Shown one piece after another: positions 45,563 to 59,059 of a DNA stretch of 64,000 nucleotides. The DNA comes from a bacterium. GTDB taxonomy: Bacteria > Desulfobacterota > Binatia > DP-6. Location of the stretch: the NCBI GenBank assembly GCA_026129405.1, contig JAHCID010000001.1, positions 1,395,237 through 1,459,236 on the forward strand, written 5' to 3'. The translations under genes and the position numbers were made by a program. The notes beneath the pieces are model-generated. The model did no database searches, was not told where the DNA came from, and saw only the letters and a program-made list of their open reading frames with translations. Each line of letters starts with the position of its first letter. The first letter of the stretch is position 1.

Positions 45563-46360
45563 ATGAGCGACACGCTGCGCTTCACGATCGAGGACGGGGT
45601 GGGTTGGATCGTCCTCAACCGCCCCGAGGCCCGCAACGCCCTGAACGCGGAGATGCGCGAGGCCTATCTCGCGGCCCTCCAGACCTGCGCCGAGGATCCC
45701 GAGATCCGGGCGGTCGTGCTGACCGCCACGGGGAAGGGCTTCTGTACCGGCGCCGACCTCTCCGGCTCGCGCGCCGCCACCGGCGCCGCCGGCCCGCCGC
45801 ATCCGGGCGGTACGCGCGACGCGATGAAGCCGAGCCAGCGCGTCATCCGCGCGCTGTGGGATCTCGAGAAGCCGATCGTGTGCGGCGTGAACGGCGTCGC
45901 CGCCGGCCTCGGCGCGCACCTCGCCTACGCCTGCGACCTCGTGATCGCGTCCGAGGAGGCGCGCTTCATCGAGGTGTTCGTGCGCCGCGGCATCGCGCTC
46001 GACGCGGGCGGCGGCTTCCTCCTCCCGCGCCACCTCGGCCTGCACAAGGCGAAGGAGCTGGTCTTCTTCGGCGACGACCTCACGGCGCAGGACGCCGAGC
46101 GCCTCGGCCTCGTCAACAAGGTCGTGCCGGCGGCGGAGCTGGAGGCGACCGTGCGGGCGTGGGCCAAGCGGCTGGCCGAGGGGCCGACGTTCGCCCTCGG
46201 GCTCTCGAAGCGGATGCTCAACCGCTCGCTGCAGGCCGACATGGACACGCTCTTCGCCGAGGAGGCGTTCACCCAGGCCCTGGTCGCGAACAGCGACGAC
46301 ATGCGCGAGGGCATCCGCTCGTTCATGGAGAAGCGTCCCCCGGCGTTCAAGGGACGCTGA
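45563..46360 (+). CDS. enoyl-CoA hydratase/isomerase
   Basis: Crotonase-fold enzyme of 265 residues. The first beta strand motif WIVLNRPEARNALN, the oxyanion-hole segments GKGFCTGADLSG and VNGVAAGLGAHLAYACDLVI, and the catalytic region GIALDAGGGFLLPRHLG are present; the Asp in LDAGGG takes the position used by PaaG/isomerase-type members rather than the Glu of classic hydratases. It may therefore isomerise or hydrate a branched or cyclic enoyl-CoA. Convergent with the next gene and overlapping it by 14 bases at the 3' end. Confidence 0.86.
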   Translation: MSDTLRFTIEDGVGWIVLNRPEARNALNAEMREAYLAALQTCAEDPEIRAVVLTATGKGFCTGADLSGSRAATGAAGPPHPGGTRDAMKPSQRVIRALWDLEKPIVCGVNGVAAGLGAHLAYACDLVIASEEARFIEVFVRRGIALDAGGGFLLPRHLGLHKAKELVFFGDDLTAQDAERLGLVNKVVPAAELEATVRAWAKRLAEGPTFALGLSKRMLNRSLQADMDTLFAEEAFTQALVANSDDMREGIRSFMEKRPPAFKGR

Positions 46361-47762
46361 CGACCCCGGGGGGGCAGGCGCGCTTGCAGAAGAGGCCGCG
46401 GTCGCGGATGACCGCGGCCGCCGCCGCCGGCACCTGTGCCTCCCAACGCGCGTCGCGCGTGCCGATCAACTGGCAGACGGCGTCCTGGTCGATGTCGAGC
46501 AGCGCGGGATCGCTCGGCGCCGTCGCGACCAGCTGGCCGGTCTCGACGAGGTAGGCGAGCAGGTGCTGCGCCGGACCGGTCAGGGCGAAGTCCGCCAGCC
46601 CGGTCACCCTACCGCTCCCCGCGTCGCGGCGCGGGTAGACGAACGCCCGCACCTGGTTCGTGAACAGGCGCCCCGCGGACTCGATCAGCCCGCCGCGCAG
46701 GTCCTGGTAGAAGCGGGCATCGGCGAGCTGCTCGAGCGTGGGGATGCCCATGGCCAGGCCGATCGGCCGGTTCGTGTAGTGCGCGAGGTACTGCGACAGC
46801 GCGTAGTAGGGCGCGAAGCGCGAGATGAGGACGTGATGGCCGAGCGCACCCAGCGCGTCGGCGCGCGAGAGGAAGTCCTCGTGGTCGATCTGCTCCGCGA
46901 CCGTGAGATCGCGCAGCGTCATCTCGAGCACGACCAGCGGCTCCTCGCCGGCGACGTCGGGCAGCGCCTTCAGCGCCTCGACGCCGCGGTGGAGGATGTC
47001 GTGCGTGAGGCGCGTGATCGGGCGGAACTGCCCGCGCTCGACGACGACGGGGCGCTTGTAGAGGACGTCGGCGGGCTGCACGACCTCGCCGGCGGCGGTG
47101 AACAGCGCCGCGTCCGTACGCTCCTGCTCGACCAGCTGGAGTGCCATCAGGCGGTTGTCCACACCGGCGAACGCCGGGCCGCGGAAGTCGATGACGTCGA
47201 CCTCGATGCGGTCGCGTGAGAGGTCGTCGAGCAGCTCCTGGATGATGCGCGCCGGCTCGGCGTGGTGACGCAGCGCCGCCCAGAGGAGGTTGACGCCGAG
47301 CACGCCGAGCGCCTCCTGCTCGCGGACCGTCTCGCCGTCGCGGCAGAAGGCGTGGATGATCACGTCGGACGGCTCGGCGCCCGGCGCGGTCTGGAAGCGC
47401 ACCCCGACCCAGCCGTGCCCGTCGTCGTGGCGCGACCAGCTCCGCTGCGCCACCGTGTTCGCGAACACGAAGAAGCTGGTGTGGTCGCCGCGCTGCGGGC
47501 CGAGCTTCTCGACCAGCTTGTCCCACTCCTGCGCCAGCATCGCGCGCAGCCGCTTGCGGGTGACGAAGCGCGGCGTGGCGCCGTAGCGCAGGTCGCTGAC
47601 CGCCTTGTCGTAGGCCGAGATGGCCTCGGCCACGGTCCCGGCCGCCCCGCCGACGCGGAAGAACCAGCGCGCCGTCTCCTGGCCGGCGCCGATCTCGGCG
47701 AAGGTCCCGTACCAGCTCTTCTCGAGATTGATCTCCAGCGCCTTCTGATGCGTCGACGGCAT
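46347..47762 (-). CDS. conserved protein of unknown function (about 470 residues)
   Basis: I recognise this as a widespread, highly conserved bacterial family of 470-490 residues without a known function; annotations seen for it (for example nucleotide adenylyltransferase or TonB receptor) are not supported by anything in the sequence. The N-terminus THQKALEINLEKSWYGTFAE and GAGQETARWFFRVGGAAGTV is nearly invariant in the family, and GPAFAGVDNRLMALQLVEQE and the LISRFAPYYALSQYLAHYT segment are further blocks. No signal peptide or membrane helix; cytosolic. ATG 47762 is seven bases from a -10 hexamer with no Shine-Dalgarno sequence. Length is normal for the family. Confidence 0.75.
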   Translation of the reverse strand: MPSTHQKALEINLEKSWYGTFAEIGAGQETARWFFRVGGAAGTVAEAISAYDKAVSDLRYGATPRFVTRKRLRAMLAQEWDKLVEKLGPQRGDHTSFFVFANTVAQRSWSRHDDGHGWVGVRFQTAPGAEPSDVIIHAFCRDGETVREQEALGVLGVNLLWAALRHHAEPARIIQELLDDLSRDRIEVDVIDFRGPAFAGVDNRLMALQLVEQERTDAALFTAAGEVVQPADVLYKRPVVVERGQFRPITRLTHDILHRGVEALKALPDVAGEEPLVVLEMTLRDLTVAEQIDHEDFLSRADALGALGHHVLISRFAPYYALSQYLAHYTNRPIGLAMGIPTLEQLADARFYQDLRGGLIESAGRLFTNQVRAFVYPRRDAGSGRVTGLADFALTGPAQHLLAYLVETGQLVATAPSDPALLDIDQDAVCQLIGTRDARWEAQVPAAAAAVIRDRGLFCKRACPPGVVSVP

Positions 47763-52057: not shown

Positions 52058-52087
52058 TTGCACTCCGGCCGGGGGGCATCGTAGCTT
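52058..52087 (+). promoter_or_regulatory. leaderless promoter of HMGS-like gene
   Basis: TTGCAC at 52058-52063, 18-bp spacer, TAGCTT at 52082-52087, nine bases before ATG 52097. Near-identical elements precede the thiolase gene. Confidence 0.52.
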
Positions 52088-52096
52088 CCGCCGACC

Positions 52097-53506
52097 ATGG
52101 TCGGAATCACCGCGTACGGCGCCTACGTCCCGATGCTGCGTCTCTCCCTGTCCGCCATCGGCGGCGGTGCGCCGAAGCCCGGCGGCCCGGAGAAGGCGGT
52201 CGCGAACTGGGACGAGGACGCCGTCACGATGGCGGTCGCCGCCGCCACCGACGCGCTGCGCGGGATCGATCGGAGCACCGTCGACGCCGTGCTCTTCGCG
52301 TCCACGTCCTACGCCTTCAAGGAGAAGCAGGGCGCGGCGATCGTCGCCAAGGCGCTCGACCTCCGGCGCGACGTCTACACCGCCGACCTCGGCGACACGC
52401 TGCGCGCCGGCACCAACGCCCTGCGGGCGGCCTACGACATGGTGAAGGCCGGCTCGGCGAAGCGCGTGCTGGTGACCGTCGGCGAGACCCGCATGGCGGC
52501 GCCGCGCACCGGGCTCGAGGCCGCCATCGGCGACGGCGCCGCCGCCTTCCTCGTCGGTGACGAGGGTGTGGCGCTCGCGATCACCGCCGCGCACTCGATC
52601 AGCGACGAGATCATCGACGTCTGGCGTACCGAGGGCGACCCCTTCGTGCACGCCTGGGAGGACCGCTTCGTCGTCGACCACGGCTATCGCACCTGCGTGA
52701 AGGAGGCGGTCACGGGCCTCCTCCAGAAGGCGGGCCTGACGCCGAAGAGCGTCACCCGCGCCGTCTTCTACGGCCCCGACGCGCGTTCGCTCGGCACCGT
52801 CGCGAAGGAATGCGGGCTCGACCCGAAGACCCAGCTCGCGGATCCGCTCTTCGGCAAGGTCGGCAACTGCGGCGCCGCGTTCGCGCCGCTGCTGCTCGCG
52901 TCGGCGCTGGCGCAGACGAAGGCCGGCGAGACGCTGCTGCTCGCGAGCTACGGCGACGGCGCCGACGCCTTCGTGCTCGAGGCCACGCCGCAGGTCGAGC
53001 GCCTCGAGGGTCAGCGCGGCGTCGCCTGGCACCTCGCGCGCCGCGGCGAGTTCCGCAGCTACGACATGTACCTCCGCTTCCGCCAGCTGCTGGCCACCGA
53101 GCACGACCGCCGCGCCGGCGCCGGCCTCTCGGCAACCAAGCACTTCCGCGACCGCGACTCCGACGTCACGCTCCTCGCCCAGAAGTGCACGCAGTGCGGC
53201 CAGGCGCAGTTCCCGCGCCAGCGCGTCTGCTTCCAGTGCTACGCCAAGGACGCCTTCGAGCCGATCCGCCTCTCGGACCGCGTCGGCACGGTGAAGTCGT
53301 TCACCTTCGACAACTTCGCCGGCAGCCCCAATCCGCCGCTGGTCGCCGGCATCGTCGACGTCGAGGGCGCCCGCCTGTACCTCCAGATGACCGACGTCGA
53401 TCCGAAGGAGGTGAAGCTCGGCATGCCCGTCGAGCTGACCTTCCGGAAGATCCACGAGGCCGGCGGGACGCCGAACTACTTCTGGAAGTCGACGCCGCTG
53501 CGGTGA
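52097..53506 (+). CDS. HMG-CoA-synthase-like protein fused to DUF35 (Zn ribbon-OB), catalytic Cys missing
   Basis: Two-part protein of 469 residues. Residues 1-345 have the thiolase/KAS III fold of HMG-CoA synthase-like proteins; residues 360-469 are a DUF35 module with a rubredoxin-like zinc ribbon (C364, C367, C378, C381 in QKCTQCGQAQFPRQRVCFQC) and an OB fold. In archaeal HMG-CoA synthases the catalytic Cys sits in FACKAGT; the matching segment here is DTLRAGT, with Leu102 in its place, so Claisen condensation by this domain is unlikely. It probably acts as a scaffold or substrate-channelling partner for the thiolase encoded next. Cytosolic. Confidence 0.8.
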   Translation: MVGITAYGAYVPMLRLSLSAIGGGAPKPGGPEKAVANWDEDAVTMAVAAATDALRGIDRSTVDAVLFASTSYAFKEKQGAAIVAKALDLRRDVYTADLGDTLRAGTNALRAAYDMVKAGSAKRVLVTVGETRMAAPRTGLEAAIGDGAAAFLVGDEGVALAITAAHSISDEIIDVWRTEGDPFVHAWEDRFVVDHGYRTCVKEAVTGLLQKAGLTPKSVTRAVFYGPDARSLGTVAKECGLDPKTQLADPLFGKVGNCGAAFAPLLLASALAQTKAGETLLLASYGDGADAFVLEATPQVERLEGQRGVAWHLARRGEFRSYDMYLRFRQLLATEHDRRAGAGLSATKHFRDRDSDVTLLAQKCTQCGQAQFPRQRVCFQCYAKDAFEPIRLSDRVGTVKSFTFDNFAGSPNPPLVAGIVDVEGARLYLQMTDVDPKEVKLGMPVELTFRKIHEAGGTPNYFWKSTPLR

Positions 53507-53524
53507 GCAAACCCGCGCTGCGCC

Positions 53525-53553
53525 TTGCACTTTCCGGACCCCGGTCGTAGCCT
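53525..53553 (+). promoter_or_regulatory. leaderless promoter of thiolase gene
   Basis: TTGCAC at 53525-53530, 17-bp spacer, TAGCCT at 53548-53553, ten bases before ATG 53564. It shares both hexamers almost exactly with the promoter of the HMGS-like gene. Confidence 0.52.
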
Positions 53554-53563
53554 CCCGCCCGCC

Positions 53564-54721
53564 ATGAAGCCTGACGCCATCCGGGACAAGGTCGCGATCG
53601 TCGGTATGGGCTGCTCCAAGTTCGGCGAGAACTGGGACAAGGACCCGCAGGACATGATCGTCGAGGCCGCGTTCGAGGCCTACGCCGACGCGAAGATCGA
53701 GGATCCGCAGCGGCAGATCGAGGCGGTCTTCTGCGGGGCGCAGTACCCGTCGAAGGGCACGGCCGAGGTGGCGGACGCGCTCAAGCTCTACGACCGGCCC
53801 GTCAGCATGGTGGTGAACTACTGCGCCACCGGCACCGACGCCTTCCGCTACGGCGTCTTCGCGGTCGCGTCGGGCATGTACGACACGGTGCTGGTCGTCG
53901 GCTTCGACAAGCCGAAGGACCGCGGCGTCTCGGGGCCGAGCGTCGCGGTCACCGGCGTGCGCGGTCTCCCGGCGACGCCCGCCGGCTGGTTCTCGCTCTG
54001 CGCCGCGCAGTACTTCCAGACCTACGGCGCCGGCCGCGAGGACCTCGCCAGGATCGCCGTCAAGAACCACCACAACGGCACGCTCGCGCCGAAGTCGATG
54101 CTGAAGCGGGAGATCACGGTCGAAGACGCCCTGGGCGCGCGCATGATCTCCTGGCCCTTCGGCCTCTACGACTGCGCCGCGCAGTCCGACGGCGCCGCCG
54201 CGGCGATCATCACCAGCCGCGAGCTCGCGAAGTCCTACCGCGACGACTTCGTCCTCGTGCGCGGCATCGGCATCGCGCTGTCGCCGAACCCGCAGGAGGA
54301 TCCGGCCTTCGACTTCCTGCGCTGGCGCGCGAGCGAGATGGCCGCGAAGCAGGTCTACGCGCAGGCGGGCATCACCAACCCGCGCAAGGAGATCGACGTC
54401 GCCCAGGTGCACGACTGCTTCACGCTGACCGAGCTGCTCGCCTACGAGGATCTCGGCTTCTGCGAGAAGGGCTCCGCGAAGGAGCACATCCAGAGCGGCA
54501 CCTTCGCGCTCGACGGCGAGCTGCCGGTCAACACCGACGGCGGTCTCAAGACGTTCGGTCACCCGACGGGGGCCACCGGCGTCCGCATGATCTACGAGAA
54601 CTACAAGCAGCTGCAGGGCAAGGCCGAGAAGCGTCAGGTGAAGAACGCGACGGTGGGCCTGTCGCACAACATCGGCGGCGCGCCGCAGGCGTGCGGCATC
54701 TGCATCGTCGCGATGCCCTGA
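53564..54721 (+). CDS. thiolase (SCP-x/acetyl-CoA acetyltransferase-like)
   Basis: Thiolase-fold enzyme of 385 residues. The nucleophilic cysteine is C87 in VVNYCATGTDAF, the His of the second motif is in AQVHDCFTLTELLAYEDLG, and TFGHPTGATGVR is the conserved third block; the last Cys lies in PQACGICIV. It resembles SCP-x-type thiolases used in sterol or branched-chain degradation and the thiolases that pair with DUF35 proteins. With the preceding HMGS-like/DUF35 fusion it forms a probable complex like the archaeal thiolase-DUF35-HMG-CoA synthase assembly. Cytosolic. ATG 53564 preferred to the upstream in-frame ATG 53525, which is inside the promoter. Confidence 0.87.
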   Translation: MKPDAIRDKVAIVGMGCSKFGENWDKDPQDMIVEAAFEAYADAKIEDPQRQIEAVFCGAQYPSKGTAEVADALKLYDRPVSMVVNYCATGTDAFRYGVFAVASGMYDTVLVVGFDKPKDRGVSGPSVAVTGVRGLPATPAGWFSLCAAQYFQTYGAGREDLARIAVKNHHNGTLAPKSMLKREITVEDALGARMISWPFGLYDCAAQSDGAAAAIITSRELAKSYRDDFVLVRGIGIALSPNPQEDPAFDFLRWRASEMAAKQVYAQAGITNPRKEIDVAQVHDCFTLTELLAYEDLGFCEKGSAKEHIQSGTFALDGELPVNTDGGLKTFGHPTGATGVRMIYENYKQLQGKAEKRQVKNATVGLSHNIGGAPQACGICIVAMP

Positions 54722-58492: not shown

Positions 58493-59059
58493 ATGGAACG
58501 GGCCGTCGTCATGACCGGGCTCGGCGGCCAGGGGATCCAGCTGGCGGCCAAGCTGCTGGCCGAGGCGGCGATGCTCGAGGGCCGCGAGGTCATGATGTTC
58601 GGCATCTTCATGGGCATGATCCGCGGCGGGTCGAGCGAGTCGACGGTCGTGATCGGGGACCGGCCGATCGAGACGCCGCCCATCGTGCCGAGCGCCTGGG
58701 CCGTGCTCGCGATGCACGGCGACGGGCTGGCGAAGCTGGGGCCGAAGCTGGAGCCCGGCGGCATCGTCTGCACGAACCGGAGCCTCGTGACGTCGCCGCC
58801 GGCGTGGCCAGGGGTGCGCCAGGTGGACGTCGCGGCGACCGACCTCGCCAAGGAGATGGGGCAGCCGCTCGGCGCGAGCATGATCGCGCTCGGCGCCTTC
58901 GTGCGCGCCACCGGCATCGTCGGCCTCGAGGCGCTCGGGCGCGCGCTCGACACCGTGCTGCCGCCGCACCGGCGCAAGCACGCCGAGGCCAACCGGCGGT
59001 GTCTCGAGCGCGGTGCGGATGCCGTGGCGGCGCCGGCCGGCGAGACCGCCTGGACCTGA
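58493..59059 (+). CDS. korC: 2-oxoacid:ferredoxin oxidoreductase gamma subunit
   Basis: Gamma subunit (188 residues) of a 2-oxoacid:acceptor oxidoreductase, the domain that binds CoA. VVMTGLGGQGIQLAAKLLAE is the family N-terminus, and MMFGIFMGMIRGGSSESTVV carries the RGG motif. It starts the operon but is separated from the other three subunits by a flippase gene. Together the subunits decarboxylate a 2-oxoacid (most likely 2-oxoglutarate, from the KorABCD-like sizes) to acyl-CoA with reduction of ferredoxin. Assignment of the exact 2-oxoacid is uncertain. Confidence 0.86.
   Translation: MERAVVMTGLGGQGIQLAAKLLAEAAMLEGREVMMFGIFMGMIRGGSSESTVVIGDRPIETPPIVPSAWAVLAMHGDGLAKLGPKLEPGGIVCTNRSLVTSPPAWPGVRQVDVAATDLAKEMGQPLGASMIALGAFVRATGIVGLEALGRALDTVLPPHRRKHAEANRRCLERGADAVAAPAGETAWT

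Follow-up and report, generated by a model that had tools for sequence, protein, structure and literature searches.

A 64,000-nucleotide window from the 5.6 Mb genome of a Binatia DP-6 bacterium (GCA_026129405.1, contig JAHCID010000001.1, 1,395,237-1,459,236 of the forward strand) contains a gene pair in which P0001, a protein that joins a domain resembling 3-hydroxy-3-methylglutaryl-coenzyme A (HMG-CoA) synthase (HMGS) to a DUF35 domain, is followed by a thiolase, P0002. As judged from alignments, the loss of the catalytic Cys, Glu and His of HMGS is a trait of the whole P0001 family, and the fusion and the thiolase are kept together across many, distant bacteria. We consider it probable that P0001 is a non-catalytic, obligate partner of P0002, a degradative thiolase, and that the two chains together constitute one enzyme.

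The HMGS-like/DUF35 fusion and its catalytic columns

P0001 is an HMGS/KAS-III-like protein with DUF35. Its Pfam domains ACP_syn_III_C and ACP_syn_III are followed by zf-ChsH2 and OB_ChsH2_C, all above the Pfam cut-offs, and the DUF35 assignment gives 29.5 bits for PF12172 (gathering score 23.2) and 34.3 bits for PF01796 (gathering score 27.1). The four zinc-binding residues of its DUF35, i.e., Cys364, Cys367, Cys378 and Cys381, are all kept in 76/76 relatives from the same phylum. An initial sequence-only reading of the window had placed both domains in one chain, and the single open frame with these Pfam domains bears this out. P0001 remains under the cut-offs of the models for archaeal-type HMGS, scoring 158.6 vs. 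353.35 bits for TIGR00748 and 212.3 vs. 244 bits for NF003274.

The best solved sequence relative of P0001 is 6ESQ_I, the HMGS chain of an archaeal complex (E 3.7e-32), followed by PhlA, the HMGS-like subunit of PhlACB from Pseudomonas protegens. An AlphaFold2 model of P0001, made from 50 aligned members (mean predicted local distance difference test score 91.1, predicted template modelling score 0.93), has 6ESQ_I as its top structural match as well (Z 47.3, root-mean-square deviation 2.1, 330 residues aligned). Next come PhlA and its Chromobacterium-type counterpart (Z 44-46; 5MG5_A, Z 44.7) and MucABC (Z 41.5), and canonical HMGS structures match with Z 40 or less. P0001 is thereby modelled as keeping the archaeal-type HMGS fold, and the archaeal thiolase/DUF35/HMGS complex, named in the sequence-only reading as the structural template, was the right choice.

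The catalytic Cys114 of 6ESQ_I aligns with Leu102 of P0001, and the columns of the catalytic Glu and His hold Thr70 and Tyr225, respectively. These columns were read in two sets with the same outcome, i.e., no Cys, Glu or His. The first set has 84 members, of which 80 are loci in genomes other than that of the window and the rest are the copy in the window and its three paralogs; L032, L090 and L091 are partial. The second set combines 76 members found in genomes of this phylum with eight that are plasmid-borne. When all locus, plasmid and phylum members were pooled and duplicates removed, which left 167 distinct rows in which near-identical strains were kept, each of the three catalytic residues occurred at its column in 0/167. 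The Leu at the Cys site had been recognized from the sequence alone; the loss of Glu and His and the reach of the loss across the family had been overlooked. A substitute Cys elsewhere in the pocket was sought, and Cys258 in the GN loop was the candidate. It was rejected, as its column varies even among the nearest relatives: among the 167 relatives it holds Thr in 94 and Cys in 23, and the seven closest ones listed have Ala or Ser.

In a tree with FabH as the outgroup, 164 of the 167 members stand apart from 6ESQ and PhlA, with a group support of only 0.11, whereas L235, L236 and L237 are placed next to these two, again weakly supported (0.39-0.41). Because the supports are weak and three members group with 6ESQ and PhlA, the tree does not establish that the family arose once. 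These three are divergent HMGS-DUF35 members with 33-34% identity to P0001, and two of them lack a linked thiolase.

Association with the thiolase and the genes around relatives

P0002 exceeds the cut-off of NCBIfam NF004810 (PRK06157; 444.9 vs. 403 bits), and its catalytic motifs NYCATG, HDCFT and GHPTG are intact. In an alignment of 71 rows, Cys87 is kept in 69/69 and both His283 and His333 in 66/66 of the relatives with a residue there. P0002 is also related to the thiolase of the archaeal complex. The ATG at 53564 is its likely start since relatives begin there, and the alternative TTG at 53525 in the list of open reading frames falls within a -35-like box. The models for the benzoylsuccinyl-CoA thiolase BbsAB score well below their cut-offs, at 34.2 vs. 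250 bits for NF053627 and 169.8 vs. 750 bits for NF053628.

That a thiolase adjoins the fusion gene, as claimed from the sequence alone, holds well beyond the window: a P0002-type thiolase occurs in 71/80 relative loci and in 0/20 control stretches. Homologues unlinked to a thiolase, which would have spoken against the association, do occur, as a minority only; in six of the nine loci without a thiolase (L030, L032, L073, L090, L091 and L101) the contig ends within 253 bases of the match, whereas L035, L064 and L094 genuinely lack it within the sequence available. In a survey of 148 genomes of the phylum, the fusion was found in 47 and the thiolase in 52, with both in 45, the fusion alone in two, the thiolase alone in seven and neither in 94 (Fisher p 5.8e-28, with kinship ignored). 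The copy numbers of the two are equal in 41 of the 47 genomes. For 70 of the 80 fusion genes in the phylum, a thiolase gene of the same strand lies no more than 3 kb downstream; of the ten remaining fusion genes, four are situated at contig ends. The distance matrices of HMGS-DUF35 and thiolase, compared over 67 loci (2211 pairs), gave a Mantel r of 0.84 (permutation maximum 0.36), with mean identities across pairs of 51% for the HMGS-like domain, 54% for DUF35 and 71% for the thiolase.

The genes near the fusion in 53 long loci of the 80 were compared with those in 20 control stretches of similar length, set by hand at round coordinates in five genomes. Genes for acyl-CoA dehydrogenase (24 vs. 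1), MaoC hydratase (19 vs. 0), short-chain dehydrogenase/reductase (SDR; 22 vs. 2) and type III CoA-transferase (15 vs. 0) are enriched. The context of the relatives is degradative beta-oxidation and not mevalonate synthesis, a point that the sequence-only reading had overlooked. Among close relatives, L033 lies near acyl-CoA dehydrogenase and enoyl-CoA hydratase genes and L032 near an enoyl-CoA hydratase gene, and L029 and L031 have the thiolase only. The L029 locus is 71% identical to that of the window; its record is titled as a Klebsiella pneumoniae metagenome-assembled genome, a title that is probably a mislabel.

An SDR dehydrogenase follows HMGS-DUF35 within 15 bases and in the same reading frame in 9/80 loci, and a chain of HMGS-DUF35-SDR-SCP2 was confirmed by Pfam in L042. 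Such a chain, HMGS-DUF35 joined to a dehydrogenase and then followed by a thiolase gene, suggests a hand-over of 3-oxoacyl-CoA. The natural HMGS-DUF35-SDR-SCP2 fusions belong to Desulfobacteraceae/Desulfobacterales (L042:5989-8751 and L034:3767-8733), with the thiolase downstream, and in L034 a gene of the MFE-2 type (hydratase-SDR-SCP2 by Pfam) lies directly upstream of the fusion.

Relatives of P0001 also occur in 29 plasmid records. In the eight plasmid regions examined, an acetyl-CoA acetyltransferase (thiolase) is the next gene after the fusion in 8/8, and ring-hydroxylating dioxygenase or acyl-CoA dehydrogenase genes are nearby in 7/8. The closest plasmid relative comes from Novosphingobium sp. 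ES2-1, which a review describes as degrading estradiol, and the thiolase of ES2-1 is 67% identical to P0002. The ES2-1 cluster, which encodes a P450, VOC-family proteins, an indolepyruvate-ferredoxin oxidoreductase, acyl-CoA dehydrogenases, an SDR and a lipid-transfer protein, is much like the edc estrogen cluster of Novosphingobium tardaugens. In the report on that cluster, the role of an "HMG-CoA synthase" (EGO55_13555), which accompanies a thiolase (EGO55_13550), is left unassigned, and the authors considered that a condensation makes no sense in this setting (PMC7793797). EGO55_13555/EGO55_13550 and P0001/P0002 appear to be the same pair, a likeness drawn by annotation only. The window genome gave no match to the ES2-1 indolepyruvate-ferredoxin oxidoreductase or to one VOC-family (extradiol-dioxygenase-like) protein, whose gene order and products match those of EdcC and EdcB, in a search that had no positive control and hence shows little. 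Since these two had no match, estrogen is not claimed as a substrate of the window organism.

Features of the window and the host genome

The positions of the two genes, their domains, the three catalytic columns and the promoter-like boxes are collected in Table 1. Both genes lie where the sequence-only reading had placed them.

Table 1. Features of the P0001/P0002 locus, numbered from the first base of the window
Feature	Position	Strand	Basis and remarks
Promoter-like box before gene 1, TTGCAC-N18-TAGCTT	52058..52087	+	Pattern search
P0001, 469 amino acids, HMGS-like domain fused to DUF35	52097..53506	+	Pfam, NCBIfam, alignment, AlphaFold2 model
HMGS-like (thiolase-fold) domain, residues 1-333	52097..53095	+	Structure match to 6ESQ_I
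Thr70 codon, position of the HMGS catalytic Glu	52304..52306	+	Alignment; Thr in 156/167 relatives, Glu never
Leu102 codon, position of the HMGS catalytic Cys	52400..52402	+	Gln 77, Leu 55, other residues 34, one gap, Cys 0/167
Tyr225 codon, position of the HMGS catalytic His	52769..52771	+	Pro 109, Tyr 22, His 0/167
DUF35, rubredoxin-like zinc ribbon and OB fold, residues 359-450	53171..53446	+	Pfam and conserved Cys
Promoter-like box before gene 2, TTGCAC-N17-TAGCCT	53525..53553	+	Pattern search
P0002, 385 amino acids, SCP2-type thiolase: Cys87, His283 (HDCFT), His333 (GHPTG)	53564..54721	+	NCBIfam, motifs

The sequence-only reading had put both genes under twin promoters. Both near-identical boxes exist: the window holds two copies of TTGCAC-N17/18-TAGCYT, which precede the ATGs by 9 and 10 bases, and none appears in 100 shuffles. 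In the whole genome the pattern is found at just these two places; however, a reversed control pattern is also found twice, so that the boxes are suggestive and not proven as promoters. In L029-L031 gene 1 is preceded by a related box, whereas the roughly 24-base gap that separates the two genes of L029 and of L031 has no second box. A looser pattern, CTTGCRC-N14-17-TCGTAG, has three places in the genome vs. six for its reversed control, and no promoter regulon is claimed.

Upstream of the pair, on the other strand, lie GntR/aminotransferase and SOR_SNZ (pdxS-like) genes, and a MatE transporter gene lies downstream. About 4 kb downstream of the thiolase, at 58493-59059, is a lone POR-domain gene (2-oxoacid:ferredoxin oxidoreductase gamma-type), which adjoins a gene with two GST_N-type domains. 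A coding-like frame of 471 amino acids on the minus strand (46347-47762) matches no Pfam family at E 0.001.

The genome holds four HMGS-DUF35 copies and four thiolases, of which two pairs are linked. It also encodes a separate HMGS with intact Cys, Glu and His, near one of two HMG-CoA reductase matches (L117, L119; contig C7), so the Cys-less proteins are not needed for HMG-CoA. The genome search that gave the two reductase matches gave no match to DXR, and the organism therefore probably uses the mevalonate pathway. A frame that by eye resembles squalene-hopene cyclase lies beside the intact HMGS on contig C7.

Proposed role and competing explanations

Several known complexes bear on the role of P0001. 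In PhlACB (PDB 5M3K/5MG5), a dodecameric C-acyltransferase, PhlA is HMGS-like and lacks the Cys and Glu (Gly115 and Cys83), the acyl transfer is carried out by PhlC residues only with PhlA not taking part in that step, the cavity of PhlA connects to the active site of PhlC, and all parts of PhlACB must be co-expressed, with PhlA needed for the complex (PMC6392133). A dead HMGS-like helper therefore has a precedent. The same three folds are present in both systems, with a Cys-less HMGS-like protein, DUF35 and a thiolase-like catalyst encoded together, whereas PhlACB consists of three separate chains and serves antibiotic biosynthesis, and P0001 unites HMGS-like domain and DUF35 in one chain whose relatives have a catabolic context. 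The archaeal complex (PDB 6ESQ/6ET9), in which acetoacetyl-CoA thiolase and HMGS share a CoA site according to PMC12329534, has the same folds, the best match to P0001 in sequence and structure, and a related thiolase; its HMGS, however, has Cys, Glu and His and makes HMG-CoA, whereas P0001 has lost all three and has DUF35 fused to it. In the ChsH1-ChsH2-Ltp2 and Shy-Sal systems of steroid side-chain degradation, DUF35 fused to a CoA-enzyme domain docks on a thiolase-fold enzyme (PMC12329534, PMC11321319), and the fused MaoC domain of ChsH2 has no catalytic role but provides space for the rings of the steroid (PMC11321319). These two differ from our pair in that the fused domain is MaoC rather than HMGS-like and the partner is an aldolase; the Ltp2/Sal aldolases have a Tyr/Cys or Tyr/Tyr catalytic pair of their own (PMC12329534). 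The MucABC acyltransferase of Streptococcus macacae (PDB 9VBO/9VBT) shares the HMGS-like subunit fold. A literature search, whose coverage left out most subscription literature, found no description of an HMGS-DUF35 and thiolase pair as a complex.

In the proposed mechanism, P0002 would cleave 3-oxoacyl-CoA with CoA using Cys87, His283 and His333. By analogy with the archaeal HMGS, PhlACB, ChsH2-Ltp2 and Shy-Sal complexes, the DUF35 of P0001 may dock onto the thiolase, and the dead HMGS-like part, which keeps the thiolase fold, would form a wall of a joint CoA/substrate cavity. With such a cavity, the thiolase could accept a bulky or cyclic acyl-CoA from the preceding dehydrogenase and keep it bound. 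The physical complex, the shared cavity, the thiolysis direction and the substrate are all elements that we infer. Of the sequence-only reading, the loss of covalent catalysis in the HMGS-like domain and the kept thiolase association are supported. Its suggestion that the domain became a scaffold agrees with PhlA, a precedent that it had not named; the positioning of DUF35 over the thiolase, which it also contained, is likewise something that we infer.

Several points weigh against an obligate, degradative partnership. In the window, the pair stands alone without flanking beta-oxidation genes, and two of the four HMGS-DUF35 copies in the same genome are unlinked to a thiolase. The thiolase-only state of seven phylum genomes and the disregard of kinship in the co-occurrence test count here as well, as do the few neighbourhood controls, drawn from five genomes, and the lack of significant enrichment for enoyl-CoA hydratase (11 vs. 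1, p 0.10) and SCP2 (6 vs. 0, p 0.13) among the 53 loci and 20 controls. Furthermore, the DUF35 domains of ChsH2 and Shy are reported to be unimportant or non-essential for the activities that were measured (PMC11321319).

The catabolic direction itself could be questioned, since PhlA, the closest structurally solved case of an HMGS-like fold without the Cys, belongs to an acyltransferase, and MucABC matches too. That P0001 and P0002 form a condensing or C-acyl-transferring enzyme of this kind, working in the synthetic direction, is nevertheless unlikely: the relatives' neighbours, i.e., acyl-CoA dehydrogenases, MaoC hydratases, SDRs and CoA-transferases, together with plasmid loci that carry ring-hydroxylating dioxygenase genes or an estrogen-type cluster and no annotated polyketide genes in the eight regions, point to catabolism rather than synthesis. 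A genuine mevalonate HMGS, or a decaying copy of one, is already contradicted and scarcely credible, although the genome with its two reductase matches and no DXR match might call for one; the three catalytic residues are gone in 167/167, an intact HMGS lies near one of the reductase genes, and a decaying pseudogene was rejected because the P0001 frame is intact and conserved across the 167 relatives.

Two further explanations grant the association with the thiolase and differ on what the HMGS-like domain does. The domain might still be an enzyme without Cys, e.g., a hydrolase or a decarboxylase of the Gln type, like KSQ or CLF domains. Gln occupies the Cys column in 77/167 members, and Thr70, Arg132 and Asp146 are conserved in the family and differ from 6ESQ_I; P0001, however, has Leu rather than Gln, the His column holds Pro in 109 members and His never, and no conserved Cys, His or replacement catalytic set is apparent in the family columns, which makes this explanation improbable. 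A non-covalent action of the domain on thiolase intermediates, suggested in the sequence-only reading, is likewise not supported, with no such replacement set found. About equally improbable is that P0001 merely stabilizes or regulates the thiolase, with the HMGS-like domain outside the substrate site. Its faster divergence relative to the thiolase (51% vs. 71% mean identity) and the reported dispensability of DUF35 for activity in ChsH2 and Shy would fit such a role, whereas the fold is kept, 42 positions of the HMGS-like domain show at least 95% conservation (some not shared by archaeal HMGS), and in PhlACB the cavity of PhlA adjoins the active site of PhlC (PMC6392133).

The non-catalytic partnership of P0001 with P0002 may be one case of a widespread two-chain thiolase class, in which a dead HMGS-DUF35 is the obligate subunit that shapes a joint CoA/acyl pocket for bulky or cyclic 3-oxoacyl-CoA and to which some Desulfobacteraceae add a dehydrogenase in the same chain, coupling dehydrogenation and thiolysis; we offer this tentatively, with a little less than even confidence. 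The principle of a Cys-less HMGS-like subunit is already known from PhlA, and what is new is the fused, widespread and apparently catabolic form. Members of the family are labelled as HMG-CoA synthase, 3-oxoacyl-ACP (acyl carrier protein) synthase or OB-fold protein; the two synthase labels imply a synthesis that is very probably impossible for the protein. A dead enzyme domain would here have persisted in distant bacteria next to an active relative that shares its fold. If this is true, many degradative thiolases have a required subunit that has so far gone unnamed, and assaying the thiolase by itself may fail or give misleading results. The two-chain class would then also explain the unassigned "HMG-CoA synthase" of the estrogen-degradation clusters, giving this orphan gene a role.

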